A stretch of DNA of 64,000 bases from NCBI GenBank assembly GCA_021502835.1, contig JAKFGP010000008.1:248001-312000 (forward strand), given 5' to 3'. Below the pieces are notes generated by a model. It was not told the origin of the DNA. It searched no databases and saw only the letters and a list, made by a program, of their open reading frames with translations. This document shows positions 2,674 through 62,054 of this stretch, piece by piece. The position numbers and the translations under genes were made by a program. The stretch comes from Streptomyces thinghirensis (GTDB lineage: Bacteria; Actinomycetota; Actinomycetia; Streptomycetales; Streptomycetaceae). How positions within the stretch are numbered: the first letter of the stretch is position 1; every line of letters starts with the position of its first letter.

Positions 2674-3364
2674 TCAGTGCTGGTAGCCGTAGACGCCGCG
2701 CGCCTGGTCGCGGACGAGGCGGCCCTTCTCCAGCTCGATGACGCGCTTGCGCATCTGGTCCACGATGTTCTGGTCGTGGGTGGCCATGATCACGGTGGTG
2801 CCCGTCCGGTTGATGCGGTCGAGCAGCTTCATGATGCCGACGGAGGTCTGCGGGTCGAGGTTGCCGGTGGGCTCGTCCGCGATCGGCAGCTTGGGCCGGT
2901 TGACGAACGCGCGCGCGATGGCGACGCGCTGCTGCTCACCGCCGGACAGCTCACCGGGCCTGCGGTCCTCCTTGCCCGCCGAGCCCGACGAGGTCGAGCA
3001 CCTGCGGCGCGGACTTGCGGATCTCGCCGCGGGACTTGCCGATGACCTCCTGGGCGAAGGCGACGTTCTCGCCGACCGTCTTGTTCGGCAGCAGGCGGAA
3101 GTCCTGGAACACCGTCCCCAGCTGGCGCCGCATCTGCGGCACCTTCCAGTTGGACAGGCGGGCGAGGTCCTTGCCCAGAACGTGCACCTGTCCGTGGCTG
3201 CACCGCTCCTCGCGGAGGACCAGCCGCAGGAAGGTGGACTTTCCGGAGCCGGAGGACCCCACGAGGAAGACGAACTCACCCTTCTCGACCTCCAGGGAGA
3301 CATCCCTGAGAGCTGGGTGGTTCTGTTTGGGGTAGACCTTGGAGACGTTGTCGAATCGGATCAC
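2674..3364 (-). CDS. ftsE: cell division ATP-binding protein FtsE
   Basis: FtsE is the cytoplasmic ATPase partner of FtsX. The GTG at 3364 is chosen because it gives the conserved start [14 protein letters not shown]; an in-frame ATG at 3406 would add 14 residues that do not look conserved. Walker A is GSSGSGKST (about residues 36-44), the Q-loop region is [14 protein letters not shown], the signature is LSGGEQQ and Walker B is [12 protein letters not shown], followed by the H-loop MATHD. One frame break near 2980 falls between the Q-loop helix and the signature. Length is about 230 aa, as expected. It is the first gene of the ftsEX unit. Confidence 0.95.
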
Positions 3365-3581
3365 GGATGCACCACGGGTCGCCGGGGAGTAGATGTGCGT
3401 GACCATACGCGAACCGGGGAGCCGACCGCAGTCACCGGTCGGGGTTGCGTATCAGTTGCGCGTTTTGTCCCTGGAGCGAGGGCGCGCGGGGTCCCCCGGA
3501 ACCTGGCACAGTGGAAGGGGGAACGTTCGCGTCGGTGCGGGCGTTGTCCTGACGGGAGCCGGCGGCAAGGAGGGTGAGCGC

Positions 3582-3775
3582 ATGACGTACGACCGGTTGG
3601 TGTGCGCTAACTGCGCGGCGCCCGTGAGCGAGGGCAGGGTGCCCGGTGTGCCGGGCGAACCGCGAGCGGCTGCAGCAGGGGAACTTCTTCGCGGGGCTGA
3701 ACCCGATGACGCCTGATCGCGCTGCTGGCGGTGCTGGTCGCGGCGGTGGCCCTACTGGCCCACCAGACCGCCTGA
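3582..3775 (+). CDS. small zinc-ribbon single-pass membrane protein
   Basis: The ATG at 3582 has a strong ribosome-binding site AAGGAGG at 3567-3573. Corrected for one extra base near 3640 and one near 3712, it encodes about 63 residues. The N-terminus MTYDRLVCANC starts a four-cysteine knuckle (CANC, then CPVC after repair), followed by ANRERLQQGNFFAGLNP and a single hydrophobic helix (LIALLAVLVAAVALLAH) ending in QTA. A metal-binding cytoplasmic head with one membrane anchor is therefore likely. I do not recognise a named family. It lies between ftsE and the sortase substrate on the opposite strand to both and is closed by a hairpin at 3818-3855. Confidence 0.65.
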
Positions 3776-3817
3776 CACCCGCGGAGGGCCCTGCGGGCCC
3801 CCGGGACACGGCCACGG

Positions 3818-3855
3818 AAGGGGCCCGGAGCGCGATGTGCGCTCCGGGGCCCCCT
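3818..3855. terminator. bidirectional hairpin terminator
   Basis: A GC-rich inverted repeat (left arm from 3818, right arm ending 3855, core GGGCCCGGAGCGC pairing with GCGCTCCGGGGCCC) lies between the convergent zinc-ribbon gene and the surface-protein gene. Confidence 0.7.
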
Positions 3856-3903
3856 TCGTCGCGATGCGGGCCGCGTACGCGGTGCGTACGCGTACGGCTA
3901 CCG

Positions 3904-4603
3904 TCAGGCAGCCGCGCATGATTGTTCATCAGTCGCGGCAGGAAGCGGAAGCCGATACCGCCGGCGATCATCGTGGCGGCGCCGACCAGCAGGAACGTGG
4001 TCTCCGCGGCGCCGGTCTCCGGCCAGCTCGTCACCGCTGCCCTGGGCGGCGGTGTCGGAAGGCCTGGGCCTCTTCGCCGGTGTCGGTCAGGGCCGAGGAA
4101 CCCTCTTCCTGGGCGACGTTGTCGTTGCTGCCGCCGTCGGGGTCGGTGTTGTTGCCACCGTTGCCGCCGTTGTCCCCGCCGTTACCCGGGTCCGTCGGGT
4201 CGGACGGGGTCCGTCCGGGTCGCTCGGGTCCGTGGTGCCGGGGTCCGTGGGCTCCGGGTCCGTCGTGCCCGGGTCCGTGAGCTCCGGGTCCGTCGTACCG
4301 GGGTCCGTGGGCTCCGGGTCCGTCGTGCCCGGGTCCGTGGGCTCGGGTCCGTCGTACCCGGATCCGTGGGCTCCAGGGTCCGTCGGGTTCCGGGTCCATC
4401 GGGATGTCGGTGGGCGGGTCCGTCGACTCACTCGTCGTCGCCGCCGACGCTCACGCCGAGGTCGACGTTGGTGTCGCCGACACCCGCGCTCACGCCGATG
4501 TCGAGCGCCGAAGCGGCGCCCGCGGCAGTCGGGAGGCGCCGGCCGCGATCACTGCGCCGGCCGCTATGCGCTTGTCGACACGGATGCGCGTCTTCTTCGT
4601 CAT
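3904..4603 (-). CDS. sortase-anchored surface protein with Thr/Pro/Asp repeats
   Basis: The ATG at 4603 gives MTKKTRIRVDKRIAAGAVIA, a typical signal peptide start. After it come a short mature region (DIGVSAGVGDTNVDLGVSV), then tandem 10-residue repeats of the type EPTDPGTTDP, then an Asn/Gly/Asp-rich stretch. The C-terminus carries LTDTG and, after repair of an extra base near 4020, ELAETGA, followed by a hydrophobic helix (TTFLLVGAATMIAGGIGF) and a short tail. LAxTG is the class E sortase motif used by Streptomyces, so covalent attachment to peptidoglycan is likely. Frame breaks fall near 4530, 4385, 4345, 4065 and 4020. The stop at 3904-3906 assumes one more lost base; uncorrected, the frame runs on. 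Function beyond wall display is unknown. Confidence 0.75.
4230..4395 (-). repeat. 30-bp tandem repeats in the surface-protein gene
   Basis: About five copies of a 30-bp unit lie head to tail; each encodes a variant of EPTDPGTTDP on the minus strand. Copy number should be considered unreliable because such repeats collapse easily in assembly. Such rigid Pro/Thr-rich spacers commonly hold a wall-anchored domain away from the surface. Confidence 0.85.
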
Positions 4604-4871
4604 GTAGTTGCTACCCCCAGTAGCCGATTAGTCAGTGAGGCCGCACTCGGGGGCCGTGATCAACGGGAGGGTAGCTGCGTACTGAGAGATCCCCCGGTTC
4701 ACATGCGCCCCCAGAAATACGCATGCCGCGCCTCACCCTTACGAATGTTCAAAGCAACGTCAAGGCCGTTGCGTACGCGATGTCCAGGTAAGGGACGTAT
4801 GCCGGACACAAAGGGTGTGAGTGTGATGTAAAACCCAGACATCACCGGCGAACAAGGGGCCAGACAAAAGA

Positions 4872-4900
4872 GCAACCGCCGCCCGAAGGACGGCAGTTGC
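4872..4900 (-). terminator. rho-independent terminator of prfB
   Basis: Arms at 4872-4881 and 4891-4900 pair, with one mismatch, around a 9-base loop. On the minus strand they are followed by a T-rich run. The hairpin begins 33 bases after the prfB stop. Confidence 0.7.
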
Positions 4901-4932
4901 CTTGTCGACAAAGCGGCGTTCCCGCTTTCGCG

Positions 4933-5448
4933 CTACTTCTCCTGCTGCTTGCGCCAGCGAATGCCGGCCTCCAGGAAACCGTCGATCTCGCCGTTGAACA
5001 CGGCCTCGGGGTTTCCCACTTCGTGCTCGGTGCGCAGGTCCTTGACCATCTGGTGCGGGTGCAGCACGTACGAACGCATCCTGGTTGCCCCAGGAGTTGC
5101 CACCGTCGCCCTCGAGGGCGTCCATCTTGGCCTGCTCCTCCTGGCGGCGCCGCTCCAGGAGCTTGGCCTGGAGGACGTTCATGGCGGTGGCCTTGTTCTG
5201 GATCTGGGAGCGCTCGTTCTGGCGGGGGCCACGATGCCGGTGGGGAGGTGGGTGAGCCGCACCGCGGGTCGGTGGTGTTCACGCCCTGGCCGCCGGGACC
5301 GGACGAGCGGTACACGTCCACCCGCAGCTCGGACTCGTCGATCTCGATGTGGTCGGTCTGCTCGACCACGGGGAGGATCTCGACACCCGCGAAGGAGGTC
5401 TGGCGGCGCCCCTGGTTGTCGAACGGCGAGATGCGCACCAGGCGGTGC
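4933..5448 (-). CDS. prfB: peptide chain release factor 2, C-terminal part only (prfB)
   Basis: Release factor 2 hydrolyses peptidyl-tRNA at UGA and UAA stop codons. What is present begins at [20 protein letters not shown] and includes the catalytic GGQ loop ([12 protein letters not shown]) and the C-terminal end IRWRKQQEK. Frame breaks fall near 5265, 5230 and 5085. Roughly the first 200 residues of a protein normally about 368 aa long are missing: upstream of 5448 the sequence abruptly stops resembling prfB or any Streptomyces DNA. Loss of prfB would be lethal, so a true truncation is unlikely, and I infer that the 5' part was lost to a chimeric join. Confidence 0.9.
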
Positions 5449-6200
5449 TGTCGACAGGTTCGTGGGCCTTTGTTGTTTGTGTTCTGGCGGGAGGCGGTGT
5501 CGACTTCGGACCTGCCGGCACCTCATCGGTGGGCGTCTCTGGGCGTCTCGTCTTGCGGCCGCTGCTGCTCCATTCGTACCGGTGTGGTGTGCTTTAGCTT
5601 TCTAAACGATCGGCATGCACCGTACCAACCTCGTACGAATGTTGACGTGGCACTAAGAAGAAGGGGAAAAGGGGGGGGGGGGGAAAAAAGAAGGAAAAGA
5701 AAAAAAAAAAAAGCCACCTGCCTTCCTGCACATATACCACAAAGAAAGTTTTTTGTTTTAAAGAAAAAAACCTGCTGTAGGCAAACTGTATGCCTTTGCA
5801 GCAGCATGGCCTCTGTTCCTTTCTTTATTATAAAAGTAAATATTTTCTTCTCAGCTGTACTTCTCTCAGAAAAAACTTTAGCATTAATAGTGCTGCAGGA
5901 CCTGTGCCACGCTGTTTTAAAGTAGAGAAGAAACGTGTGCTGGCTGCTGCATGGCTTCTGGACTGTTCCAAGACAACACAGCGCCTTCTGTTTGCGCTGA
6001 CTTCTCCCCTCGCTGCCAGGAACCGCGGGCGACATCATCGCTCCCATATTAAAGAACTGCTTCTTCCGTCTCCGGCTGTTTCCCGCACATCCGCGCGCTT
6101 TCCATCGCTGCAGCCGGCCTTCCGCACCGAGCCGCCTTTATTGACAGCGACCCCGCTTCCCACCCGGCACCTCACAGAAAGCAACACCGAGATTCCACGT
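5449..6200. other. foreign AT-rich, eukaryote-like DNA (probable chimera)
   Basis: The segment contrasts sharply with everything else in the window. It contains a run of 13 or so G, long A-rich purine tracts (about 5690-5715), and T-rich stretches such as TTCCTTTCTTTATTATAAAA. Stop codons are frequent in all frames, and there is no codon bias or ribosome-binding site. From about 6000 to 6180 it becomes more CpG-rich while still not resembling coding DNA. The left join is sharp at about 5448, beside the palindrome CTGTCGACAG (5448-5457). The right join is somewhere between 6180 and 6240. The composition recalls vertebrate genomic DNA, but I cannot identify the source. The short open frames in it are not credible genes. 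Confidence 0.8.
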
Positions 6201-6224
6201 ATCGCAAAGTACCACCCTCGTCAC

Positions 6225-7414
6225 CGCCCGTGTAGCCACGACCGGCGCCGATCGCCTGCCACCAGAACGTCGCGCCCGCCCCAGCGCCAGCGGCGGCGCC
6301 GCGCGGCTGCGCGGTGCGGGCCCAACCGGGCGCCCAGGGGCGCCGGACGCCCGCGGGGCCGGGCGGGTGCGCGGGCGCCGCCGGCCAGCTCGTCGGGGGC
6401 CGGCGCACGCGCATGGAGGTGTGCGTGTCGCGGTTGGAGTCGGCCGGCTTGGCCCCCGGCACGAGGGGCACCGCTCCCCGGCGTCGTACCGGCTCCCGCG
6501 GGCGCGGCCGAGCGACGGCGGCTCCTCAGGCGCGTCCTCCTCCTGCTCCGCGTCGGGCTCGTCCACGTCCGGGCCCATCCCGGCCAGCATCGGCAGCAGC
6601 TCGCGCAGCCGGGCGCTCTAGCTCGGAGGCGCGCAGCCGGGAGGCCGGCGCCTTGGCCAGGCACTGCACGAGCAGCTGCCACAGCTCGTCGGGGATGCCG
6701 GGGGAGGGGGACGACGCGTTCGGTCACATGGCGGCGCAGCACCGCGCCGGGATGGCCGCCGCCGAACGGCGTGAAGCCCGCCAGCAGCTCGTACAGGACC
6801 GTGGCCAGCGCGTAGATGTCCACCGCCGCGCGCGGGGCAGGCCCTCGACGATCTCCGGCGCCAGCTAGTCCGGCGTGCCGATGATCTTCGTGGCGCGGGT
6901 GTCGCCGCGGGGTGTCGATGAGCTTGGCCACCCCGGGGGTCCGTCAGGAGGGCCCGGGTGCGAGCCGCCGGGGCCGAGCAGGCCCTCATGTCGAGCAGCA
7001 CGTTCTCCGGAGCTTGACGTCGCGGTGCACGATCCCGGCGGCGTGCGCGGCGGCCAGGCCGTCGGCGACGTCGGCGACGACCGCCACGCGCGGCCGCGGG
7101 AGCCAGCCGCCGCTCCCGGTCGAGGGCGGGGTGCGCAGATCCGTGCCGCGGACCGGGTCCATGACCAGGGCGAGATTGTTGCCGTCGACCACCGGGTCGC
7201 GCACGGAGACGACGTGGGGGTGCTCCAGGCCGAGCCGGGCGGTGCGCTTTCTCCACAAGCGCGAGGTTCAGGGCCTGGTCGGACGCCGGGTCCTCCCGCC
7301 GCAGCTTGATCGCGACGGGTCCCTCGGGACCCTCGCCCAGCTCACACCGATGCCGGCACTGCCCCGACCGAGGATCTGGTGGGCGGTGTACCGGCTGCCG
7401 ATCTTCCGTGCCAA
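6225..7414 (-). CDS. serine/threonine protein kinase (first of two)
   Basis: This is a Hanks-type kinase. A TTG at 7414 gives LARKIGSRYTAHQILGRGS, the canonical start of this group, with GGAG a few bases upstream. Recognisable pieces follow in shifting frames: the ATP-lysine region (PVAIKLRRED), the hinge (NNLALVMDPVRGTDL), the catalytic loop HAAGIVHRDVK, then VAKLIDTPRR, and AAVDIYALATVLYELLAGFTPFGGG from lobe two. After about 300 residues come a Pro/acidic linker (DVDEPDAEQEEDAPEEP) and a possible membrane segment. At least eight indels are needed, and the 3' end runs into the foreign segment, so the true stop is unknown; 6225 is approximate. It lies 143 bp downstream of the second kinase on the same strand. 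Confidence 0.8.
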
Positions 7415-7557
7415 AGGCTGCTCCTACCGACGCGTGTTGCGCTAAAGGGTACGCGTCGGGGAGCCAACCTTCACAGCGGAGGCGGAAATCACCCGCCGGA
7501 TGTCGACAAATCTACAGACTCGTCGTCGGATTCGGCGAGAACGCGCTCCACCGGCGA

Positions 7558-9298
7558 CTAGTTGCCGGTCGAGGTCCCGCCGCCCGAGCCGCTGCCGCCG
7601 CCCAGGTCGCCGATCAGTCCGTCACGGTGGTGAACCAGTCGCTTGAGCTGCTCCCAGTAGCCCTTGCCGTGGCGATCCAGTCCACTGCGGGGGCTCAGCT
7701 CCCAGATGAGCCAGCCGGCCACGAACATGATGACGAGCGTGAACAGGCATCCCCCGGGGCAGCCGAGCCCAGGGATCCGCATCGGGTTGGCGCCGCGCTG
7801 CGCGCGGCGGCCTGGGCTCCGCACCGAGGGCGGCTGGGGCTCCGGGCGTGGGCGGCGGGGCGTACCGCTGCGGCTGGGGCCGGGGCGGCTGCTGAGGCTG
7901 CGGGGTGGCGTACCGCTGCGGCTGTTGCTGCTGCGGATAGCCGTAAGCCGGGCTGCTGGGGCGGCGGGCCCTGGGGAGCCTGGCGGGGCTGCTGCTGCGG
8001 GTGGGAGACCTGCCGCTGGGGGCGGCGGCGCGAGCGGGTCCTGGTTCGGGTCGAGGTGACTGGACCTGCGTCTGCTCGTTGCGGTCGCGGGCGGCGCGCG
8101 GCTGGTTCTGCCAGGGGTGCGGGTCGTCGGGCCCGCCGGGCTGCCCGCCCTGGCCCTGCCCCGGTCCGCCCGGCTGTCCCGGCGGCACCGGCGGCATCAC
8201 GGCGGTCGGGTCGGCCGCGCCGCGGTTCGGGAGTACGGCGGTGGGGTCGGCGGCGCCCGAGGCGTTGCCGGTGTGCGGCAGGACGCTGGTCGCGCCGTTC
8301 GGGTCGTAGGCGCCGTTCGGGTTCTGCGGCAGGACCTGCGTCGGGTCCGCGCCGCCGGGGGCGCCCGGTGCCTGCGCGGGCGCGGGGTCGGGCGCGAGGA
8401 GCACGCCGACGTTCTCGGCGGCGCCGATCTGCGCGCTGCTCGAATGCACGCCGATGCCCTCGGCGACGACGCGCAGGCCGCGGGCGAGGTTCTCGGCACT
8501 GGGGCGCTCGTCGGGGTTCTTGCGCAGGCAGCGCTCGATGACCGTCCACAGCGGGTCGGGGACGGTGGGAGGGCGGCGCGGTTCGGCGCTCAGGTGCTGG
8601 TGCAGGACCTCCAGCGCGGAACCCCGCCGAACGGGGGCCGGCCGGTGACCAGCTCGTACAGCAGGATGCCGGCGCCGTACACGTCGACGGCGGAGGTCTG
8701 CGGGCGGCCCTCGGCGGACTCCGGCGCCAGCGTACGCGGGCGTGCCGACGAACTCGTGGGTGCGGGTGAGGCCGGGCGAGTCGGCGAGGCGGGCGATGCC
8801 GAAGTCGGTGAGCATCGGGGTGCATCTCGCCGCCGGTCTGCTTCACAAGGACGTTGGCCGGCTTCAGGTCGCGGTGGACGACGCCGTCGGCGTGGCTGGC
8901 GGCGAGCGCGTCGGCTACCTGCGCGGTGAGCAGAGCGGCGGCAACCGGGGTGAGCGGCCCGTTCTCGCGCAGGTAGCGGTGCAGGTCCGGACCGTCGATG
9001 AGATCCGCGACGAGCGCCAGCAGCTCGCCCTCGACGACCAGGTCGCGGACCCGGACGATGTTGGGGTGGGTCAAGCCGGAGCAGGGACGGAGCGCTCCGA
9101 AGGAAGCGCATCACGATGTCGGGATCGCTCGCGAGCTCCTCCCTGAGGACCTTGATCGCGACGGTCTCGCCGGGCTGTCCGGCCACGGCCGCCCTCGGCG
9201 CCCGCGGTCTCCCTACTTGACGGGCCCGCCAGACGGTGCCCGTGGCGCCGCCGGCCGAGGGGCTCCTCGAGGAGGTACTCGCTGCCTACCGGCCGCAC
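7558..9298 (-). CDS. membrane-anchored serine/threonine protein kinase (second of two)
   Basis: The GTG at 9298 opens with VRPVGSEYLLEEPLGR. The glycine loop is disrupted by indels, then the reading recovers: ETVAIKVLREELASDPDIVM (ATP lysine), LALVADLIDGPDLHRYLREN, DGVVHRDLKPANVLVK (catalytic Asp), MLTDFGIARL (metal-binding Asp), AVDVYGAGILLYELVTGRPP. After the kinase domain (about 270 aa) there is a roughly 200-residue linker rich in Pro, Gly and Gln. One membrane helix follows (CLFTLVIMFVAGWLIWEL), then a short tail ending GGGTSTGN. Frame breaks lie near 9260, 9200, 9090, 8820, 8730, 8620, 8060 and 7950. No PASTA repeats are visible, unlike PknB. Together with the adjacent FHA protein it may form a phospho-signalling pair. 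Confidence 0.88.
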
Positions 9299-9740
9299 GT
9301 CATGCGCTCCCTGTTGCTTGCTGGCTGTTCCGGCCCACTTAGTGCCGCGGTCCCGGCACCGGGTTGTCGTCGTTCTGTGGGGTTCCCATTGGTCCGCAGG
9401 TCCGTCTTACGTTCCGTGTCCGGTACCCGTTCAGGTGCATGTTCGGGGAAAGACGCTCGACCCGGTCCCTTGGTTGCCGGGCCCGGACGTGACCGATCTC
9501 AAGCGGACGCCATTCGATCATCGGGACGCCACCTGTCAGGCACGCTTCGCGGGCAGAGGCGACCAATCAAGATCATTTGATGGCGGGCGGCGGGCGTGTT
9601 GTCAGTGGCAGGTGCGAGGATGCGTGCAGTACTGGCCGACGTGCTCGTGTGGCGGTGCGGAAGTCCGCGGTGGGGGACCGCGGTAGACGGCTTCTGTCCC
9701 CGGCGCGCGCGGCGCCCGCGCGAAGGGACCGCTGACGGCG
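9299..9740. other. divergent intergenic region between kinase and FHA-ATPase gene
   Basis: This 442-bp gap separates the minus-strand kinase from the plus-strand FHA/FtsK gene, so both promoters should lie here. I see no conserved coding stretch. AAGGG at 9723-9727 is a weak, rather distant ribosome-binding site for the ATG at 9741. No clear operator or riboswitch was found. Confidence 0.5.
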
Positions 9741-12700
9741 ATGCAGATCCGGCTGACCGTCGCCAAACCCGCTGGGCCCGCATGCTTCGGTGGGGGGCCG
9801 CGCCGCCGCTGCGACGTGCTGGTCACCGCACCGGCCGGCACGGCACTGGCCGCGGTCGCCTCCGCGCTGGCCGCGGCGCTCCCCGGTGGTGAGGGCACGG
9901 GCTCGGCCAGGTGGTGCTCTACGCCGGCGCGCAGCGGCTCGACGCCCAGCGCAGCACCCTGGGCGAGCCCCGCTGACCGACGGTGCCGTGCTCTGCCTGG
10001 GCGCCCCCGGCGAGCCCGACCCGCACACCGAGCCGGCCGACGTCCCGGCCCAGCTCCACGTGGTCGCCGGCCCCGACGCCGGCGGCGTCCACCCTGCTAC
10101 GGCGGCCAGATCCAGCTCGGCCGCTCCGCCGGCCTCGACGTCTGCTCGACGACCCGGACGTCTCCCGGATGCACTGCGCCGTGACCGTCGCCTCCGACGG
10201 CCACGTCTCGGTCGCCGCGACCTCGGCTCCACCAACGGCGCCAGTCTGGACGGCGCCCGCGTGGGCAGCCGCCCGGTCCGCCTCGTGCCGGGCGCGCTGC
10301 TGCGGATCGGTGAAATCGGCCCTGCGGCTCGTGCCGGCCCCCGAGGGGCGCAGGCGCGGGTGGCGACGACCCCGGACGGCGAGGGCACGTACGGCTGTCC
10401 GGTGCACGGGCACTCCCGTCCGCCGCCGGGACGGGTGCCGGCGATGTGAGGTGGCCCACGCGCCGTGGCGGACGGGGAGCAGGGACACGCGCCCTTGGGG
10501 GCGCGAGCAAAACGGCGGTTCCGCGCGTACGGCGGGCGGCACGGACGATCCCCGCACCCGACCGGTGCGACGGATGGCCTCGCACGCAAGACCGGGAGGA
10601 AGGACACTTTGCGACGACGGGCGGGACGGACGGGCCCCCGCACACGGCGGGCACGCCGGACGCTTCGCGAGCGGGTCCGGCGAGGCCGGCGGACGGCCCG
10701 GCACGCGGAACCGGGACTGATGGGTGGGACGGCCCCGCCGCGCGCGGACCACCACGCCTACGGCACGGCGGACCGCGGCACCGGCGCGGCGCCGGCCGAG
10801 CCGCGCCAGGTGCCCGGCCAGGGCGGCGCGCTCCCCGCATTGAAGCGCGGCGCCGGGGCCCCGTTGCGGGGCACGCCCCGACCGGCCCCGCCGGAGGCGG
10901 CACGCACGGCGGCGCGTACGGAGCGGGCAGCACGGCGGGGCGTATGGAGCGGGCACTAGCGGCGGCGTTGACGGAAGCGACGACGCCCCCGGCGCGGACG
11001 TCCTCGGCGCGGACCGCTGGGACTGCCTCGACGGGGGCCCCCGGACCCGCGCGGGCGCCCCTGGCCCGCACACCGGTGCCGGCACCGGCACCGGCACCGG
11101 GCGGCGGGAACGCCCTGTGGGGTACCGACGTACCCCAGGGCGTGCGCAGGCGCGGCGGGCTCGGCGCGTGGGCGACGGCTGGCTGGCGGGCGCGGCTCCA
11201 CCCAGGGACACTACCGGGTCCGGCACGTACACCGCGTACTGACGCCAGCAGCCCGCCGGACCGGCACGCGACGGTCCCCGCGGGCACCTCCCGCGGCGCG
11301 AGACCTGGCCGGACCCCGCCCGTTCGTTGCTGCTGACGGCGCTCGGGCCGGGGCCGCACAGCTGTGGGAAAACGCGGCCCGCCACCCGGAGGCGCTCTCC
11401 GCGTGGCCTCGGCACGGCTCGACCGGGTGCTTTCCGGCGGCAGCCGCGCCGCTGCCCGCGTCCCGGTGACCGCCGGGCTGCGCAGGTCGGGGCGCTCGGG
11501 CTGGGCGGACTGCGCGCGCGCGGCTCTTCTTGGGCCGCGCGTGCGTCTGGCCAGCTCGCCGCGCTCACTCCCCTGACGTCCTGGAGATCAGTCCTGATCA
11601 GCCTGGACCGTTCCGTCCGCTCGACGAGCGGGCCGCCGAATGGTCCTGGCTGGGTTGGTTGCCCAGCTGTGCCTGGGACACGGCCAGGACTGCCGCCTCC
11701 TGCGTCGCCTACGACCGCAGAGCAGGCGCACGGCCCGCGCCCACGAGACTCCTCCGCCGCCTGGAGGACCACCTGACGGACACTTGGGCCGGGAACCCGG
11801 CCGACGGCTCCCACGATCCCGGCCCAGCTGGCCGCTCCTCCGCAGGGGCGCCACACGGGGCTTATTTAACGCCGGGCATTGCAGGGTGGACAGGCTGTTC
11901 TTACAGGCACCACCCCGACGGCGGCTCTCTACACAGCGCTTGCACACCGGGCTGATTCCATGGCGGCCGACCCCCGCAACCGGCCTCGCCGCTCGGACGG
12001 GCAGCCGGGCGCCCAGCAGCCACAGGCGCCCCCGACGACTGGATCCACGAAAGCCGTCACTCGGCCGATCCCGCCAAACCGGCCTCGCTGCCGGACGTGG
12101 TAGCCGGGCGGACATGCAGCCGCTGGCACCACCCCCGACGGGCGGATCCCACACCAACCGCTCACCGGGCCGACCGCCCCGCAGCCCACCCCGCAACCGG
12201 GCGCCCAGGAGCCACAGGCGCCCTGACGGCGGATCCCACGCAAGCCGCCCACTGGGCCGGCCCCGCAGTAGGTCCCGCGGCCGCCCTGGCAGCAGCAAAG
12301 GGCGCCGCCGCCCGGCAGCCCCTCCTGGGCGCGGCCCGACGACGGGACGGCCCGGCCGGCGGCTTCGCCGGCCGTACACCGTGGTCGTCGTGGACGGGGA
12401 CCCCGGCGGTGCCGACGTGCGCGAGGCGATGGCGCGGCTGGCCCTGGAGGGTCCGCGCGGCCGGCATCCACGTCGTGTGCCTCCGCCGAGACCGCCGCGG
12501 CCTCGCCGACCTCCCCGGTGACGGAGACCTACGAGGCGGCCTGCGCGGTGTCGCCGGTGTTCCGGCAGTGCGGTGCCGTGGCGCTGCTCAGCGGCGACGT
12601 GGCGACGGCACTGCGGCTGCTGCGCATCGGCGCGCACGGGCGCCTTCCCGGGCGGCCTGAGTGCCAGGGCGCCCAGGGCACCCAGGCCGCTCCAACCGCC

Positions 12701-14085
12701 CCCCGCCGGCCCGGTTGGGCACGGCACCCCTCGGCACGGTCGACGCCGTCTCCTCGCCTGGGCCGAGCGGTTCGCGCGCGCACTGGCGCCGCTGCGCGCC
12801 GACGGCGCGACCGGCGAGCGCCACGCGCGCGTGTCCGCGCCGCTGCCCCAGGCGGCCCGGCTCCTCGACGAGCTGGGCCTCGCCCGGGCCACCCCCGCCT
12901 CCCTGATGGCCAGGTGGGCGGCCGCGGCCGACGACTCGAGGCCCTCGGCGGACGAGCACAGGCCGTGCTGGGCGCCGGGCCGCGCGGCCCGGTCACCGTC
13001 GACCTCGCGGCCGAGGGACCGCACCTGCTGATCGAGGGCCCGCCCGGCAGTGGACGCACCGAGCTGCTGCGGGCGCTGGTCGCCTCGCTCGCCTCCGCCG
13101 AACGCCCCGACCGCCTCGGGATCGTCCTGATCGACGGCCGGGATGGCGTCAGCTCGGGCGGCGGGCAGGGCGAAGGGCTCCGTGTCTGCACGGACGTACC
13201 GCACGTCACCACCCACCTCACCGCCAACGACCCCGTCCGCATGCGGGAGTTCGCGCTGTCCCTGAGTGCCGAGCTGGAAGCGGCGCGCCGAGCTGCTCGG
13301 ACGGTCGGACTTCACCGAGTGGCACACCGGGCGGGAGGTGTCGGGCCGGATGGTCACCCAGCGCACGGCAGCGGGCGCGGCCGGCCCCGGGGTGATATCG
13401 GACACCGGGGACGTCGACTCTCGCCCAGCTCCACCCTGCGGTTGCGTCCCGGTGCCGCCCGGCGCCGGGCCAGGCCGTGCCGCCACTGCCGCGCCTTGTC
13501 GTGGTCGTGGACGACCTCGACGCGCTCGTCACCCCCCGCTCGGCTCGCCCGCGGCCCGCTGTGGGGTCGGTGATGCGGGCGCTGGAGGCCGTCGCGCGGG
13601 AGGGCGAGCGGCTCGGCGTGCACCTGGTGGCCGCCACCGGTCCCGGGGGCCGTACGGAACAGACGGAACCGGCCCGCCGGGCGGCGCTGCGGGTCACCCT
13701 GGAGGCGCCGGTGCCGGGACCGGACGAACCGGCGCCGGGGCGCGGGCGGCTGGCTCCGCCGAGGGGCGTCCCTGGTGTTCCAGGGCGGGCTGCCGGGTTT
13801 CCGGGAGCAGCATCCCGGCGGACGGCGCACCCTGCGGCTCCACCGTCGTCCCCTGGCGGTGGCACCGCATGCAGCGACCCGCCCACCCGGCGCCCGGTAC
13901 GCGAGCTGGGCAACGGTCCGACGGATCCGGCGCTGCTCGCCAGCGCGTTGGAGCGGGACCGCGCGCGAGGTGTCGGCGGCGGAGGTGCCGTCGCTGTTGC
14001 ACGCCGCCGGGCGGACACCGCCCCTTCGACCGCCCCGCCCGGCGTGCCCACCTGGTCACGATGCGGTCGACGATCCCCCGCTTGA
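9741..14085 (+). CDS. FHA-domain FtsK/SpoIIIE-type ATPase
   Basis: This is a large (about 1,450 aa after repair) protein. The N-terminus (MQIRLTVAKPAGP, then CDVLVTAPAGTALAAVASAL) leads into an FHA phosphothreonine-binding domain at about residues 110-200, seen as GQIQLGRSA, DVCLDDPDVSRMHCAV and GSTNGASLDGARVG. A long low-complexity region with repeats follows. The C-terminal third holds FtsK-like ATPase modules: VVVVDGDPGGADVREAMARL, then a second module with Walker A IEGPPGSGRTELLRAL (near 13035) and Walker B RLVVVVDDLDALV (near 13490). Many frame breaks occur throughout, and the stop position is approximate. Such ATPases move DNA or proteins (EccC of type VII secretion is a relative), but no WXG100 partner is nearby, so the substrate is unknown. 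The neighbouring kinases are plausible partners for the FHA domain. Confidence 0.75.
11905..12262 (+). repeat. degenerate repeats inside the FHA-ATPase gene
   Basis: Four related units begin near 11915, 12032, 12135 and 12224, spaced about 90-120 bp apart. Each contains a GGATCC- or GGCGG-type core encoding Pro-x-Gly-Gly-Ser-like stretches and a following CGGGCC/GGCCGGCCC motif. In protein they form a flexible Pro/Gly/Ser/Arg linker between the FHA and ATPase parts. Indels make the exact unit unclear. Confidence 0.5.
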
Positions 14086-14191
14086 CAGGCGCGGACGCAG
14101 CGCCTTGCTTCGCCCTCACCCTCCTGGCGTACACCAGAGCGCGCACGGGACAGTGCCGAACGTTCGACGAGGAACGAAGAACGGGCAGGTG

Positions 14192-15585
14192 ATGCGTAAC
14201 GAGCAGCACCATCCGATCAGGCAGGACCGTCAAGAGGACCACCGCCGCCGCCGCCTTCGCCAGCGGAGCACTTCGCGCCTTCGCTCACCGCGTGCGGTGG
14301 CGACGACGACAACGGCGGCGGCGACAACGGCAGTGGGGGCGGCGACAAGGAGCCGGCCGCCACCGCTCACCCTCTCCTAGCCTGGACGGCGAGAGCTTGG
14401 AGGTCGCCGCCGCTCTAACCGGCGCCGAGCAGGAGAACTTCAAGAAGGTCTCGCCGAGTTCGAGAAGCGCACCGGCGCCAGGTGACCTCTCTCGCGCCCG
14501 CCCAGGATCCGATCATCAACTTCCTCGGCTCGAAGATCGCGGGCGGCGCCCCGCCGGACGTGGCGATGCTCCCCCAGCCCGGCGCCATCAAGCAGGCCGT
14601 CGAGAAGGGCTGGGGCTGGCGCATGCTGGGCGCGGAGGCCACCAAGGAGCTGACGGAGAACTACTCGCAGGGCTGGCAGACATCGGCAAGGTCGCCGACA
14701 AGCGTACGGCGTCTCACTACAAGGCCGCCAACAAGTCCCTGATCTGGCACAACGCCCAGGTCTTCGAGAACGCGGGCGCGGCCGAGCCCAAGACCTGGGA
14801 CGAACTCCTCACCACCGCACAGACGATCTACGACTCCGGCGTCACGCCGTTCTCCGTCGGCGGCGCGGACGGCTGGACCACCGACTGGTTCGAGAACGTC
14901 TACCTCTCGCAGGCGGGCCCGGAGAAGTACGACCAGCTGGCCGCGCACCGATCAAGTGGACGACCCGTCCGTCAAGGAGGCGCTGACCACCCTCGCCGAG
15001 ATCTGGGCAAGAAGGACTACGTCGCGGGCGGCGCGTCCGGCGCGCTGCAGACCGAGTTCCCGGCCTCGGTGACGCAGACCTTCACCGGCGGCGACCAGCC
15101 CAAGGCGGGCATGGTCTACGAGGGCGACTTCGTGCAGGTCAACATCGCCGAGACGGACGCCGAGGTCGGCACGGACGCGAAGGTGTACTCCGTTCCCGGC
15201 CGTCGGTGACACCGCCCCGGTGGTCTCCGGCGGCGACGCGGCCGTGATCCTGGAGGACCCCGAAGGCGGCGCAGGCACTGGCCACCTGGCTGGCCTCGCC
15301 GGACGCGGCGACGATCCAGGCGAAGCTCGGCGGCTACCTCTCGCCGAACAAGAACGTGGACGCGTCGGCGTACCCGAACGACGTGCAGAAGAAGATCGCC
15401 GAGGTGCTGGTCGCGGCCGGCGACGACTTCCGCTTCGACATGCGGACCAGGCCCCGCAGGCCTTCGGCGGCACGCCCGGCAAGGGCGAGTGGAAGGCGCT
15501 CCAGGACTTCCTGAAGAACCCGAAGGACGTCGCCGGCGCCCAGGCGAAGCTGGAGGCGGACGCGGCCGCTGCACGGGGAGGCTGA
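14192..15585 (+). CDS. sugar ABC transporter substrate-binding lipoprotein
   Basis: This is an extracytoplasmic solute-binding protein of family 1, delivering a carbohydrate to the permeases that follow. The ATG at 14192 and a basic, hydrophobic leader end in a lipobox: once one or two indels are repaired the sequence reads LTACGGDDD. A Gly/Asp/Asn linker follows, and then the binding fold with DPIINFLGSKIAGGAPPDVA, KSLIWHNAQVFENAGAAEPK, TWDELLTTAQTIYDSGVTPF and FTGGDQPKAGMVYEGDF. It ends EADAAAARGG. Frame breaks lie near 14197, 14265, 14385, 14450, 14690, 14955, 15195 and 15440. About 455 aa. Ligand cannot be told from sequence. The next gene starts 4 bp later. Confidence 0.88.
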
Positions 15586-15589
15586 CGCG

Positions 15590-16939
15590 ATGACGTCGGC
15601 CACGGCGGCAGGGAGCCTCACGGGCCCTGCCGCCCCCAAGTCGCGCAAGAGCGTGACCGGCACCCGCAGAACCGTGGCGGCCCTAGCCCCGCCTGCCCTG
15701 GTGCTGCTCGGCGCGCTCGTGGTCTACCCGATCGGGTACTCGCCGATCCGCAGCTTGACGACCAGTCCGGTGACGGCTTCGCCGGATTCGACAACTACCA
15801 GGCGCTGCTCACCGACGACGGCATCCGCACCGCGCTGAAGAGCAACATCATCTGGGTGGTGTTCGCGCCCACGGTCGCCACCGCGCTCGGACTGGATCTT
15901 CGCGGTGCTGACCGAACGGGTGCGCTGGGGCACGGCGTTCAAGCTGGTCGTCTTCATGCCGATGGCGACTCTCCATGCTGGCGGCCGGGATCATCTTCTC
16001 GCCTGGTGTACGACCAGGACCCGGACAAGGGCGTCGCAAACGCGGTGTGGGTCGGGGTGCACGACACGTTCGCCGAGTCGTCCGCGTTCCCGAAGGCGCA
16101 CCCGGGCCGCGAGAGTCGCTGCTGGAGCCGGCCGGCGGCGGCGCGTTCCTCACCAAGCAGCCCGTGAGCGTGGGCGGACGGTCGCCCTCCCCTCGTCGGC
16201 GTCGCCCCCGACCTGATGCCGGACGGCGCGGAGAAGGCCGTACCCGCGAAGCCCGAGGACGGGAAGATCACCGGCACCACCTGGCAGGACTTCACCCGCG
16301 GCAAAGGGCGTCGGGAAGCTCAACGGCGTCGACGCGGCCGAGCTGGGCTACGCCGGGATGAGAGGATCGAGGCCGTCAAGGACGGCGAGGTCAGTCGCGG
16401 AGACCACGGCGTCCGGCGACGGCACGTTCACGCTACCCGCCGCGGCGGACGGGGCGCGGCTCAGACTCCCCGCCGACAACTTCAAGGAGCCCTACAACGG
16501 CCTGAACTGGCTCGGCCCCTCGCCCGTCACGCCGGCCATCATCGGGCCGTACGTGTGGATGTGGGCGGGCCGCGCGATGGTGCTGATCGCGGCGGGCTGG
16601 CCGGGTCCCGCGCGAGCTGCTCGAAGCGGCCTGGTCGACGGCGCCAACGAGTGGCAGGTCTTCAGGACGGGTCACGGTGCTTCTCCTGGCGCCGGTCCTG
16701 GCGGTCGTGGCCGTCACCCTGATGATCAACGTCCTGAAGGTCCTCGACTCCGGGTCTACATCGCCCCCGGTCCCTCCCAGGACGACGCGAACGTGCTCGC
16801 GCTGGAGCTGTACCGCAAGGGCTTCGCCTCCGACCGAAGCCGGGTATCGCCAGTGCCATCGCGGTGTTCCTGCTGCTCCTGGGTCATCCCGGTGATGTGG
16901 TTCAACGTACGGTGGCTGCGGCGGGAGGTGTGGCGATGA
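15590..16939 (+). CDS. sugar ABC transporter permease (MalF-like) with large inserted loop
   Basis: This is the first membrane permease of the operon; GGGGAGG at 15574-15580 precedes the ATG. The first helix is ALAPPALVLLGALVVYPIG. After the second and third helices comes an insertion of roughly 130-150 residues (about 16020-16500). It carries WVGVHDTFAESSAFPKAHPG, GTTWQDFTRGKG and TASGDGTFTLPAAADGARL and looks like an external beta-sandwich domain. The transport core resumes with GPYVWMWAG, the EAA loop (LLEAAW, DGANEWQVF), and the last helices near SAIAVFLLLLVIPVMWFNVR. Numerous indels; about 450 aa. No ATPase gene is present, and Streptomyces sugar transporters commonly share MsiK encoded elsewhere. 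Confidence 0.83.
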
Positions 16940-17875
16940 CCACGGACGCGGGCTCTCACGAAGGTTGGCACCAACGCCACCTCGGGACGGCCTGCAAGGC
17001 GAAGAGTCGCTGGGTCGCAGCTCGCCGAGGGCGTCAGCGGGGGCTTCGGTCCGGGGTGTTCCTGATCGTCGTGGGCCTGCCCTGGCTGGTCCCGACGATC
17101 GGCCTGTTGCTGGTCCTCGCTGCGCACACCCCGGACATGGCGGCGAGCGGCTGGTGGGAGGTCTTCACCTAAACCGTCCCAGCCTCACCTTCCAGAGCTA
17201 CGAGGAGCTGCTGAAGAACGGCGACATCACCCTCCTCCCTCCTCAACACCGTGATGATCACCGTCCCGGCGACGGTCCTGGTCGTGGTGACCGGGCTCGG
17301 CTGGCGGGCTGACGCCGTTCGCGATGGACTCTCCCGGGCCGCGACTGGTGGTTCCCGGCTGTGGTCGGACTGCTCGTCGTCCCCGTCCAGGTCGCCCTGA
17401 TCCCGATCGCCGAACTCTTCTCGGCAAGGTTGGCCTGTTCGGGCCGGTGGGTCGGCGTGGATCCTGTTCCACGTCGGCTTCGGCCTGCCCTTCGCCGTCT
17501 TCCTGCTGCGCGGAACTTCTCTCGCGGAGATCCCGAGGGAGCTGCTGGAGGCGGCCTGTGGCTGGACGGCGCGGTGGTGAACCGCGCCTGTTCCTCCGGG
17601 TCGTGATGCCGGGCTGGGCGGGCCCGCGATGCGAGCCTCGGCATCTTCCAGTTCCTGGTGGGTGTGGGAACGACATGCTGGTCGCGCTGATCTTCTCGGA
17701 CTCCGGGAGAGCCGCCGATCACGGTCGCCCTGCAGACACAGGTACGGCAGTCTCGGCAACAACATCGACGTACTGGCGCCGGGAGCGTTCATCTCCATGG
17801 TGATCCCGCTGGCCGTGGCTTCGCGTTCCAGCGGCGCAGTTCGTCTCCGGCGTGATGGCGGGCGCCGTCAAGTAA
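16936..17875 (+). CDS. sugar ABC transporter permease (MalG-like)
   Basis: This is the second permease; its ATG overlaps the stop of the first (ATGA), showing translational coupling. Helices are visible as GVFLIVVGLPWLVPTIGLLL, VGLLVVPVQVALIPIAELFS and FHVGFGLPFAVFLLR. The EAA loop reads EIPRELLEAA with the following ARRW-type segment and FLRVVMPG. The C-terminus has NNIDVLAPGAFISMVIPLAV and ends SGVMAGAVK, typical of MalG-type proteins. Around 310 aa after repair; frame breaks are frequent between 16960 and 17850. The operon is closed by a hairpin at 17896-17927. Confidence 0.83.
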
Positions 17876-17895
17876 GCGCCGCAGCAGCACCCTTT

Positions 17896-17927
17896 GAGGG
17901 GCGGGCCGAACACGGGCCCGCCCCCTC
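17896..17927 (+). terminator. hairpin terminator of the sugar transporter operon
   Basis: GAGGGGCGGGCC pairs with GGGCCCGCCCC(CTC) across a short loop, 20 bases after the permease stop. Confidence 0.7.
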
Positions 17928-18054
17928 CTTCGTACGGGGGCTTCCGCGTGGGCACCGGGTCCCCCGAATGCCGTAGGGGCCGTAACCAAGTCACTCCATT
18001 GGCCGTTCCCGGGCCGAACGCCCGCGCCGACCCCGCCGACCCATGGATGTTCCC

Positions 18055-20349
18055 GTGCCCAGGTTCAAAGTGTCATCGTCCCCGCGTACCAGGTTCAGGC
18101 GTATCTGCACGAGTGCCTGAGTCGGTGCTTCCCAGTCGTATCCCGGATCTCGAACTGATCGCGGTCGACGACTGTTCACCGGACGCCTGCGCGCGATCGT
18201 CGACGAGTTCGCGGCTCGCGACCCGCGCGTACGCGCGCCGTGCACCTGCCTGGAGAACCAGGGTTCGGCCCCGCCCGCAACGCCGGGATGGAGAGCGGGC
18301 GAGCGGCGACTACCTGGTCTTCCTCGACGGCGACGACACCCTCGTCCCGGACGCGCTGCGGGCCATCGCCGACCGGGTGAAGGAGGACCGGGAGCCGGAC
18401 GTCCTGGTTCATACGACTACGCGCGCATCGCCTGGTCGGGGCGACGCGGTCCGCAACCAGGCGGCCCGGCTCCTCACCGAACAGGGCCCGGCGCCGTTCC
18501 GGCTCACCATCGGCCGGGGGCTGCTGGAAACTGCTGATGGTGGCCTGGAACAAGACGGTGTGGCGGAGTTCCGCCGAGCGCGAGGGGCTTCACCTTCCCG
18601 CCCGGCTACTACGAGGACACGCCGTGGACCTACCCGGTCCTGCTGACGGCGGACTCCATCGCCACCCTGGACCGGGTCTGAGTCCCATACCGGCAGCGCC
18701 GGCGGGGCAGCATCCTGGCCGCCGAGCGAGCGCCACCTGGACGTCTTCGAGCAGTACGACCGCGTCTTCGCGTTCCTGGAGACCGCACCCGAGTCGGCCC
18801 GCTGGCGGCCGGTGCTCTACCGCCGCAGCGCTGGCCGACCACCTGACGACGGTGTTCACCCGCCCCGATCGCCTCCCGCGCTCCCTGCGCGGCGAGTTCC
18901 TGCGCCGGGCCCGCGTCCACTGCCGCCGCTACCGGGTCCCCGGCGCCCCCGCCCCGCTGCCGGTGCGCCTGCGCCACGCCCCGCTTCGGCTGGGCCTGCG
19001 CCGCACCTACGAGGCCTGCGGCTGGCGTCGGCCCTGCGCCGCCGGACGGTGAAGGGCGCTGCCAGGCTGCTGCGCACTGCGCGGACTGCCGCCCTGCGCC
19101 TGCACTACCGCGGCTCCAGCGCCGCCTCCTGCTGCGCGTCGACCGTGCCGTCTTCGCCGCCGACGGGGACCGGGGACACGGCTGCAACCCGGGGGGCGCT
19201 GGAGGAGGCGTTCCGGCGACCTCGCGCCGCACATCCGCACGGCGTGGGTGGCCGCCGACCCCGGCGCACCATCGGGACCCCGTCTCGACCGGTACTCCGG
19301 CGCCCGACGCCCGGCACGGCCGCCTACTGGACGGCGCTGGCCCGCTCCCGCTACCTGGTGCACAACGCCTCCTTCGACGCCGGCCTGGTCAAGCGGAAGG
19401 GCCAGGTGCTGATCCAGACGCAGGCCGGGACACCCTCAAGCACATGGGCCTGGACCTCCAGGAACGCCTGGCCGCTCGCCGGCGCAACGACTTCGTCCGC
19501 CGCGCTGTGCGACGTCGACTCCTGGGACTACGTCGTCTCCGCCAACCGCCACTCCACCCTGACCCGGGAACGCGTCCACCCCGGCGGCTACACCACGCTG
19601 GAGTACGGCCAGCCCCGCACCGACGTCCTCCAGCGCGGGCGACGCCCAGCGGACGTGACCCGGCTGCGCGAGACGCTGGGCATCCCCCGAAGGCACGGTC
19701 GCGATCCTCTACGCGCCCACCACGCGACTACCCGCACCCAGCGCCGCCCTGGACCTGGGCGTCTCACCCGCCTGGGCCCCGCTTCATGGGTGCTGGCCCG
19801 CGCCCACCCCCGCCACGGCGGTCCGCTCGCCGAGCCCCCGGGGCCCGGATCCTCGACGTCAGCGGCCACCCGAGCGTGGAGTCACGCTCTGCCTGACCTC
19901 GAGACGCCCTCGTCACCGACTACTCGGCACTGATGTTCGACTACCGGGTCTGGACCCTTCGATCGTGATCCACGCCGACGAGCCCGAGCCCTACGAGGCG
20001 GCCCGCGGCACCATCACTTCGACACCTGCACGCCTGCCTTCCCCTCCAGGCGTTCGATCGCGTGGGACGAGGACGAGCTGATCGGCGTCTTCGCCGGCGG
20101 CCACTGGCGCGGCTCCCGGTCCGGCACCGGCTCCAGGGCCCTTTCCGGGAGCGGCTCTGCCCGCACGACGACGGCCGCGCTCCAGAACGCGTCAGTACGC
20201 CGCGTGGTGCTGGGCGAGACGGACCTCTCCACTTGGTCGTGCCGCTCGCCGAACGGCACCTTGCGCCCCTCGGCCGCCGCGGCCTGGCTTTTACCCGCTG
20301 GCCACGATGCCTGTACCGCCGGCCCCCGCACCGTCACCGACAACTCTGA
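18055..20349 (+). CDS. bifunctional glycosyltransferase 2 / TagF-like glycerophosphotransferase (copy 1)
   Basis: The N-terminal half is a GT-A family-2 transferase: the GTG at 18055 opens VPRF, then LELIAVDDCSPDAC, a GPARNAGM-like patch, and the DxD-type motif YLVFLDGDDTLVPDALRAIA. The C-terminal half is CDP-glycerol:polyol glycerophosphotransferase-like: RSRYLVHNASFDAGLVKRKG, QAGTPLKHMG, WDYVVSANRHSTLTRERVHP, GQPRTDVLQR, RAHPRHGG and VTDYSALMFDY. The motif normally HGTPLK has Ala in place of His (codon 19424-19426), and GYPRND is GQPRTD, so the transferase half may be altered. Indels are dense (more than ten) and the 3' end is approximate. It is the first of three tandem homologues; GTG-CCC-(A/C)G(G/C)-TTC starts match copy 3. 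Confidence 0.75.
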
Positions 20350-20552
20350 TCGCCGTTTGCCCACTGGGAGTTCCGCATGCCCCCAGTTCGTCGCGGCCCA
20401 CTCCGACCCGGCCGCCCACCCTGGCGGCCGACGGGACGGACGAAGCCGCGCCGGACGGCGCTGAGCGGCCGGGGTGGTTTCCGTCGGGCGGGGGCTCCCG
20501 TCCGACGGGCGACTTTCCCGCGTAGACCAGTGGAAATGAAGGAAAGGCATGT

Positions 20553-22790
20553 ATGCCCCGCTTCCAGCATCATCGTCCGTCCCATGGGAGTCGCGGGGCG
20601 GCTGTCCCAGTCGCTGGACTCGGTCTCGCCCAGTCCTTCGGCGACTTCGAGCCGATCCCGGTCCCGACGCCCCGGACCGCGTCGCGCCGGACGTCGCCGT
20701 GGGCGCGCCGAGCGGGATCTAGCCGGGTGGCGCCCGTGCGCCGCCGCCGTCGGCCGGGCTTCGCCGGGGCGCGCACAGCACGCCGGGATGCGGGCGGCGA
20801 CCGGCGCGTACCTGCTGTTCCTCGACGGCGACGACGTCCACGCACGGGCGCGCTGGCCGCGCTGGACGCGGCGGCTAGCGGATACCGGCGGCGTGGACGT
20901 GCTGCACTTCGAGCACGAACGGGTGCCCTGGTGGGAGGGCGAGCCGACCAACCCGGCCGCCCCGCTGCTAGCGCGAAGGGCCCGGACGGCGCCTTCGCCC
21001 CCCGACCGCGCCCCGCACCTCACGGGCGTGCGGCTGCCCGCCTGGAGCGCGGGTGTACCGCCGTACCTTCCTCACCGAGCGGCGGCTGGACTTCCCCCGA
21101 CGGGCACTTCTACCGACGATCGGCTTCGGCGCCCTGGTCGCGGCGCGCGCCGAGCGCGTGGCCGTGCTGGGCGCTCCATCGTCGTACGGCATCTGGTGCG
21201 GCGGCAGGGCAGACCGGCTGAGCCTGCCCCGGTGAGCACCACGCGGACCTCTCGACCAGGCCGAACTGGCGCTTCGCGCACGCCGCCGAGCGGGGCTGCC
21301 GGACGAGCGGCGCGGACCGCTACCCGAGCAGCTCTTCGCCGCGATCCTGAAGACGGCTTACCCATCCGCGGCGCCTGACCCGCCGGGAGCGCCGCACCTT
21401 CTTCCGCCGGGCGAGCCGCCTCTACCGGCGCCACCGCCCCGCCGGTTTCCGCGCCCCGGGCGGCCGGCTCGGCGTGCAGCACCGCCTGCTGGCGTCGGCT
21501 CGTACGCGGGCTTCCGCGCCCTGCGCGCCGCCAACGGGCGGCGACCCGGCGTCCCCTGCGGCGCCTGCCGCGCCCCACGGACTGCGCACCCGCCTTAAGC
21601 TACCGGCGCGCGCTGCGCCGCCCGCTGGACCCGGGCCTCGTCGTGTACTGCGCGTACTGGGGCCGCGGCTACGCCTGCAACCCGGCCGCGATCCACGCCG
21701 CGCCCGCGAACTCGCCCGCACCTGCGCTCGGTGTTTCCTGGTCGAGCCCCGACCAGGCGACACGGTCTCGACGACGTCGACCACGCCGTCATCGCAGCTC
21801 GCGCGCTACTGGGGAGGTGCTGGCCCGCGCCAAGTACCTGGTCCCAACAACGCCAATTTCGCCGAGGGCGTCGTCAAGCGCCCCGGCAGCGTGCTTTGTC
21901 TGAACGCAGCACGGCACCCCGCTGAAGACCATGGGCGTCGACCAGTCGACGTACCCGGTGGTGGCCGCCGCGAGCGGCGCCAGCTTCGCCAAGCTGCTGG
22001 GCCGCGTGGACCGCTGGGACCACAACATCTCGATCCAACCGCCACTCCCACCCAGATGTGGGAGCGCGCCTTCCCGGGTTCCTACGGAAGCACCTGGAGT
22101 ACGGCTATCCGCGCAACGACGTCTACTGCACGGCGACCGCCGACGACGTCGCCCGCGTCCGGCGCGAGCTGGGCGTCCCGGAGGGGAAGACGGCCGTCCC
22201 TGTACCGCGCCCACGCACCGGGACTACTGAGCGGCTTCGGTGCGGGCGGCCTGGACCTGGAGGCCTTCTGCGAGGCGGCGGGCGAGGACGTGGTGGTGCT
22301 GCTGCGCGCCCTACTTCTACGACCGGGGCGGCAGGCGGGGCAGCGGCCGGATCATCGACCTGACCTCGCACCGCTCCTCCGAGGACGGTAGTGCCTGGCC
22401 GCCGACGCGCTGGTCACCGACTACTCGTCGATCATGTTCGACTACGCCAACCTGGACCGGCCGATCGTCGTGTACGCCGACGACTGGGACGTCTACCGGG
22501 AGACCCGCAGGCGTCTACTTCGACCTGATGGCGGCGCCGCCCGGACCGGTGGCGCGGACGCCGGAGGAACTGGCCCACGTCTTTCGCGACGGCTCCTACG
22601 CGGGTCCGGAGTCGGCGGCGCTGCGGGCGGCCTTCCGGGAGCGCTTCTGCGAGTTCGACGACGGCCCGGGCCGCCGAGCGCGTCGTGCGCCGGGTGCTGC
22701 TCGGCGAGGCCGCCCGAGGCGCTGCCGCCCGTGATCCCGCTCGTGGAGCGCGGTCCCGGCCCCGCCGCCGCCACCCTCGTAGGGAGCTGA
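20553..22790 (+). CDS. bifunctional glycosyltransferase 2 / TagF-like glycerophosphotransferase (copy 2)
   Basis: The ATG at 20553 follows AAGGAAAGG at 20538-20546. The N-terminal GT-A half reads MPRFQH (MPRFSIIVPS after repair), then TGAYLLFLDGDDVHA (DxD-type). The C-terminal half carries PGLVVYCAYWGRGYACNPAA, RAKYLV, the intact motif QHGTPLKTMGVD (His codon 21910-21912), GRVDRWDHNIS, EYGYPRNDVYCTATADDVAR, YAPTHRDY after repair, and DALVTDYSSIMFDYANLDRP, VYADDWDVYRETR. The final segment FRERFCEFDD and ERVVRRVLLGEAPEALPPVI ends VGS. About 740 aa. Predicted to add glycerol-phosphate or a similar polyol-phosphate units to a lipid-linked wall polymer. Ends 6 bp before copy 3. Confidence 0.82.
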
Positions 22791-22796
22791 CCCGCC

Positions 22797-30054: not shown

Positions 30055-30231
30055 GTCCTGTCGTCGAACTCCCGTCGTCCGCCCGGAGGGGCGGGCCTCG
30101 CGAGGTCAGGTGCGTGCTCGGCGCGCGGGGCCCTGATCCTCCTACTGGATGTACTTGGGTCAGGGCCCCGTGCGGCGAGAGTGCGTGCATGGCGTCGCGA
30201 GGCGAGACGGGAGTCTGACGACAGGGCCTAG
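30051..30231. mobile_element. MITE-like inverted-repeat element (about 180 bp)
   Basis: Terminal repeats at 30051-30076 and 30206-30231 match as inverted copies at 23 of 26 positions (outer part CTAGG(T/C)CCTGTCGTC) and both begin with CTAG. An internal hairpin has perfect 11-base arms (30126-30136 and 30160-30170), and the flanks between also pair partly, so the whole element can fold. No coding capacity. CTAG ends fit the target preference of some IS5-family elements, suggesting a non-autonomous derivative; the family is an inference. Confidence 0.65.
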
Positions 30232-30307
30232 GGCGGCCCTCCGTTGAACGATCGCCGAAGGTGTCAGCCGCGTCCTGGCAGGAGCCGCTGACAAGAACCG
30301 GCCGGTA

Positions 30308-50340: not shown

Positions 50341-50410
50341 GCGGGCAGTCGTGCCGCTGGGGCGGCACGGGTGGGCGCGGCGGCACCCCGCACCGCCGGG
50401 CCGCGACACC
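50341..50410 (+). repeat. 70-bp dispersed hairpin repeat, copy B
   Basis: Near-identical to copy A at 43961-44030 and in the same orientation. Here the 8-bp stem CGTGCCGC/GCGGCACG has a 4-base loop (TGGG). It starts 17 bases after the acetyltransferase stop and lies 115 bases before the next gene. Confidence 0.8.
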
Positions 50411-60493: not shown

Positions 60494-60636
60494 GCGGGTC
60501 AGTCTGCCCCCCTACCGGGCGGACAAATTGAAGGTGCGCAGGCCATACCGCGCCCGGTCCGCACCCCGACCACGCCGTGGCACGATGGCTGCCAACCTGC
60601 CGCCGCGATCGCGGACGGGCACCGTGAAGGAGCGAC

Positions 60637-62047: not shown

Positions 62048-62054
62048 CGCGGCG

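Follow-up and report, generated by a model that had tools for sequence, protein, structure and literature searches.

A foreign tract replacing half of prfB in a Streptomyces contig is probably an assembly artefact

Foreign DNA in bacterial genome records has been described previously, as exemplified by a putatively complete genome of Neisseria gonorrhoeae in which cow and sheep sequences were reported (Merchant et al. 2014, PMC4243333). Contaminants are sometimes wrongly taken into contigs or scaffolds, and contamination has been reported to occur mostly as short contigs, at the edges of longer ones or in regions bordered by N (Steinegger and Salzberg 2020, PMC7218494). The locus described here concerns a tract of ~770 bases (~0.77 kb), spanning 5449 to about 6205–6225 of a 64-kb stretch of Streptomyces DNA that was analysed as a whole (hereafter, the window). 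It resembles the above-mentioned cases in that foreign DNA stands in a bacterial record, where it can share a contig or scaffold with host DNA, yet it differs from the usual cases of the 2020 report in being joined mid-contig, and from the vertebrate cases in that its attribution to a vertebrate is a putative one based on composition. A literature search for Streptomyces assemblies with chicken contamination returned nothing on point among the matches listed. We consider it very probable that the tract, whatever its source, is an artefact, i.e. foreign sequence joined into a chimeric contig and not part of the Streptomyces chromosome. It is almost certainly not a real feature of the genome, with no biology in it, and an artefact of this kind is without importance as biology.

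To define the extent of the tract, the window was compared with eight relatives drawn from the best-matching of 61 genomes searched (Table 1). Homology to prfB, the gene for RF2, ends at 5447/5448 in all eight alignments, so that the left join is exact and the sharp border placed within prfB at about 5448 by the first-pass annotation is borne out. At 5449 the window departs into unrelated sequence while prfB continues in the four of the eight relatives that matched the motif used, and window sequence remains without alignment in all eight until 6242–6337, where alignment resumes within the kinase gene at 81–84% DNA identity. The tract has no counterpart at the locus in any of these relatives, nor was a second copy detected within the 64-kb window at E up to 1. 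In the window as in the relatives, prfB is located downstream of the kinase gene on the minus strand. In seven of the eight, the kinase frame ends in a hydrophobic segment followed by a short tail (the eighth did not match the motif used), and the broken kinase frames of the window resemble this ending, by eye, until about 6205–6225. Against these C-termini, the right join is estimated to lie at ~6205–6225, within the final codons of the kinase gene; a right border before the kinase gene, as first annotated, thus exists, but it is situated slightly beyond 6200 and inside that gene's last codons. In seven of the eight relatives, the left break and the kinase stop are separated by about 0.65–1.2 kb of DNA (alignment coordinates), and since the tract occupies the place of this similarly sized DNA it represents a replacement, which contradicts the earlier description of DNA spliced into prfB as an insertion. 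The material lost at the tract comprises ~197 codons of prfB and the spacer, and probably also the final codons of the kinase gene.

Table 1. Positions in the window of the foreign tract, in three parts, and of the genes on either side of it.
Feature	Position	Strand	Basis or character
prfB C-terminal part, RF2 residues ~198–368 of 368	4933..5448	minus	Pfam RF-1 match in one broken frame; stop from sequence
Left part of foreign tract	5449..5650	none	59% GC, CpG o/e 1.19; no homologue found
AT-rich, CpG-depleted core of foreign tract	5651..6000	none	42% GC, CpG o/e 0.26; G13 and A13 runs near left end
Right part of foreign tract	6001..6220, end uncertain (~6205–6225)	none	61% GC, CpG o/e 1.29; no homologue found
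Serine/threonine protein kinase gene	6221..7430, both ends approximate	minus	Pkinase match in one broken frame

The GC content of the tract is 51.9%, as against 72.2% for the whole window. Its description as AT-rich applies to 5651–6000 (GC 0.42) and does not extend to 5449–5650 (0.59) or 6001–6220 (0.61); similarly, it is stop-rich in two of the six frames, with 10 stops each, and not in the other four (2–4 stops). The claim that it is rich in homopolymers was confirmed, three of the five long runs (A/T of at least 7, G/C of at least 8) in the 64 kb being located inside the tract, including G13 and A13. The remaining long homopolymers are C runs of 11 and 12 at 34632 and 36978. The core contains four CpG, and its CpG o/e compares with a minimum of 0.83 outside the tract (350-base bins, 1273 in all); TpG/CpA o/e is 1.11 for 5651–6000 and 1.27 for 5700–6000. 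The ends of the tract display no CpG depletion, and because both are of ~60% GC with CpG o/e of 1.19 and 1.29, the value over the full tract (0.93) is unremarkable.

The label eukaryote-like rests on the CpG depletion of the core and on its simple runs, and not on a database match. In vertebrate genomes, a CpG-poor stretch next to CpG-island-like DNA is ordinary, and the composition of the tract fits vertebrate sequence of this kind, while its ends could have another origin. Indeed, GC-rich ends with ordinary CpG need not share the source of the core, and it is possible, though unlikely, that the same kind of chimeric contig arose from a non-vertebrate contaminant (alga, protozoan, plant, insect or fungus) or from two joined contaminants; this would be the same artefact with another source, and its chance is a share of that accorded to the artefact and not additional to it. 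The differences in GC and CpG o/e between the three parts favour such an origin, but the ordinary occurrence of CpG-poor DNA adjoining CpG-island-like DNA in vertebrates weighs against it.

In a nucleotide search of the genus (E up to 0.001), 389 of 392 genomes contained no match to the tract and the other three matched it over 26, 40 and 48 nt only; a search that included other families gave matches of 26–40 nt in two of 61 genomes, both among those three. In phage and plasmid records the sole match at E up to 0.01 was to 48 nt of prfB included at the query edge, and a laxer plasmid search with 5449–5700 produced 13 marginal matches (best E 0.06). Searched at E up to 10, E. coli genomes contained nothing similar to the tract, and exact tract patterns were absent from prokaryote contigs (one pattern) and viral contigs (three patterns). 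The source search covered prokaryote, phage, plasmid, viral and E. coli sequences, and the collections searched may omit records of the window's own genome. At the protein level, the longest reading frame of the tract (5523–6047, minus strand) gave no hit among 46 candidates with an E limit of 10, no Pfam domain was identified in the tract frames tested (the 5523–6047 frame being empty at E up to 1), and a PDB search with the 5790–6812 plus-strand frame gave no match at E up to 1.

Three further candidates were rejected. A weak PDB match of the 5523–6047 minus-strand frame to triosephosphate isomerase (E 0.0023, residues 39–111), which might have indicated coding sequence, was put down to chance because Pfam was empty in the same frame. 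A sub-threshold Rfam match to a trypanosomatid snoRNA in 4600–6600 (E 0.25, 20.3 bits versus a gathering score of 40) was also taken as chance. A restriction linker at the left join, based on GTCGAC at 5450 and 5499 and GCGGCCGC at 5555, was given no weight, since the two motifs occur 72 and 13 times, respectively, in the window.

The prfB remnant begins at residue 198 of the 368-residue RF2, such that 197 N-terminal residues are missing, in agreement with the ~200 absent codons noted before. A complete ~368-codon prfB frame is absent at the locus and the remnant is itself frame-broken, with three 1-nt indels in 504 bases (4945–5448, aligned to the loci L024 and L025 of two relatives), while the region of the SPF and GGQ motifs is kept (at 204 and 249 in the protein of the relative). 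The prfB gene is essential. Its essentiality is supported indirectly by the report that Actinomycetota use the RF2-specific stop codon especially often (PMC12421855). A single RF2 gene free of internal stops is present in 39 of 41 genomes, comprising the nearest genome compared (G001) and 40 relatives, and two are present in none. No RF2 gene is seen in G001, where its place reads 1,900 N, or in G018, whose assembly is split into about 1,140 contigs. The other release-factor matches, one per genome in 40 genomes, are RF1-like (36–42% identity).

Most of the window is collinear with G001, the main blocks being 92–97% identical. Across 1,567 bases of the NAD-glutamate dehydrogenase region, G001 shares 98% identity with the window; among the best 24 of 80 loci, the named ones nearest to it are those of Streptomyces sp. 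CB02414 (95%), S. fumigatiscleroticus and S. swartbergensis (both 92%). The genus assignment is based on named loci. Across 68.6 kb, G001 contains 13 runs of 10 to 1,900 N, which could be masked stretches but look like scaffold gaps instead. The tract falls inside the 1,900-N run, a gap that pertains to G001, and the locus is consequently lacking even in the draft genome closest to the window. In the gene adjoining prfB, GTCCGTGGG-type repeats are present at 4187–4420, and these may explain the gap, since the N run of G001 starts inside the repeat. The longest breaks in collinearity, and most of the others, coincide with N runs of G001; three smaller ones (window 30056–30234, 43976–44000 and 50349–50378) do not. 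The first of these corresponds to 179 bases missing from G001 and, unlike the tract, is of 71.5% GC. When 15 non-collinear stretches were tabulated (three of 20 bases or fewer being left out), all but the tract were of 67–85% GC, the tract alone being out of line.

Indel openings relative to G001 amount to 10–42 per kb in the aligned 1-kb bins of 3000–22999, and to 11–42 per kb in those from 4 to 22 kb, in each case except for 4 per kb at 8 kb, as compared to 1–10 per kb in bins 23–43 kb and 2–20 per kb in bins 44–63 kb (alignments under 88% identity, i.e. paralogues, were dropped, and bins 5 and 11 are without alignment); part of these indels may represent strain differences or errors in G001. 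The zone 3000–22999 additionally contains many broken frames. The kinase frame is repeatedly broken in the window, whereas it is open in G001. The indels in prfB are of the kind produced by sequencing error; a decaying broken gene in a cell could show the same, but the adjoining kinase frames are broken as well.

The proposal of a chimeric contig or contamination in the first-pass annotation is thereby upheld. No homologue of the tract was found in the prokaryote and viral collections searched, its left junction is exact and it replaces half of a single-copy gene, and it furthermore falls where the nearest genome compared has an N run and where the local indel rate is high, all of which argue for an artefact. 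A plausible course of events would be that a hard-to-sequence stretch, comprising the end of the kinase gene, the spacer and the N-terminal half of prfB, had left no data, and that a contaminating read or small contig of ~0.77 kb was joined into the hole to give a chimeric contig. Its source would most likely be a vertebrate that had been sequenced or handled at the same site; the vertebrate source, the hole in the data and a join made during library making or assembly are all points that we infer. As a counter-point to this scenario, there is no N at the joins in the window.

Conversely, in a real horizontal transfer the first half of prfB would have been exchanged in the chromosome for eukaryotic DNA, the cell being kept alive by a second, complete prfB elsewhere. 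The continuity of the tract with Streptomyces sequence on both sides, in a window that contains no N, is in keeping with such an event, as the frameshifts in the prfB remnant would be with a decaying gene. However, two RF2 genes occur in none of the 41 genomes, nothing beyond 26–48 nt of the tract was matched in the 392 Streptomyces genomes, the tract coincides with an N run of G001, and the neighbouring kinase frames are broken too, in indel-rich sequence; horizontal transfer is thus considered highly improbable. Still less credence is given to a living Streptomyces in which specifically vertebrate-like DNA replaces the first half of prfB and RF2 is supplied from elsewhere in the genome; if real, a vertebrate-to-Streptomyces transfer disrupting an essential gene would be very surprising. 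A bacterial mobile element or other low-GC prokaryotic DNA, inserted with a deletion, is about as improbable as horizontal transfer, since, although mobile DNA is often below its host in GC, the phage and plasmid matches consist of prfB itself and the 13 marginal plasmid matches, the tract frames tested hold no Pfam domain, the core is strongly CpG-depleted (o/e 0.26), and the event would cost the cell a gene of which 39 of 41 genomes carry a single copy.

Viewed as a chimeric contig, the locus is of relevance to data hygiene, as the record would falsely suggest a broken prfB for this strain and gene calls within the tract would represent spurious 'bacterial' proteins. Elsewhere in the window, the order of two blocks is swapped relative to G001, 60253–60747 matching 63954–64441 and 61118–62505 matching 62557–63943 of the joined G001 pieces. 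The two blocks are separated by a 10-N run in G001, and at 60253–62505 the order is probably wrong in one assembly or the other.
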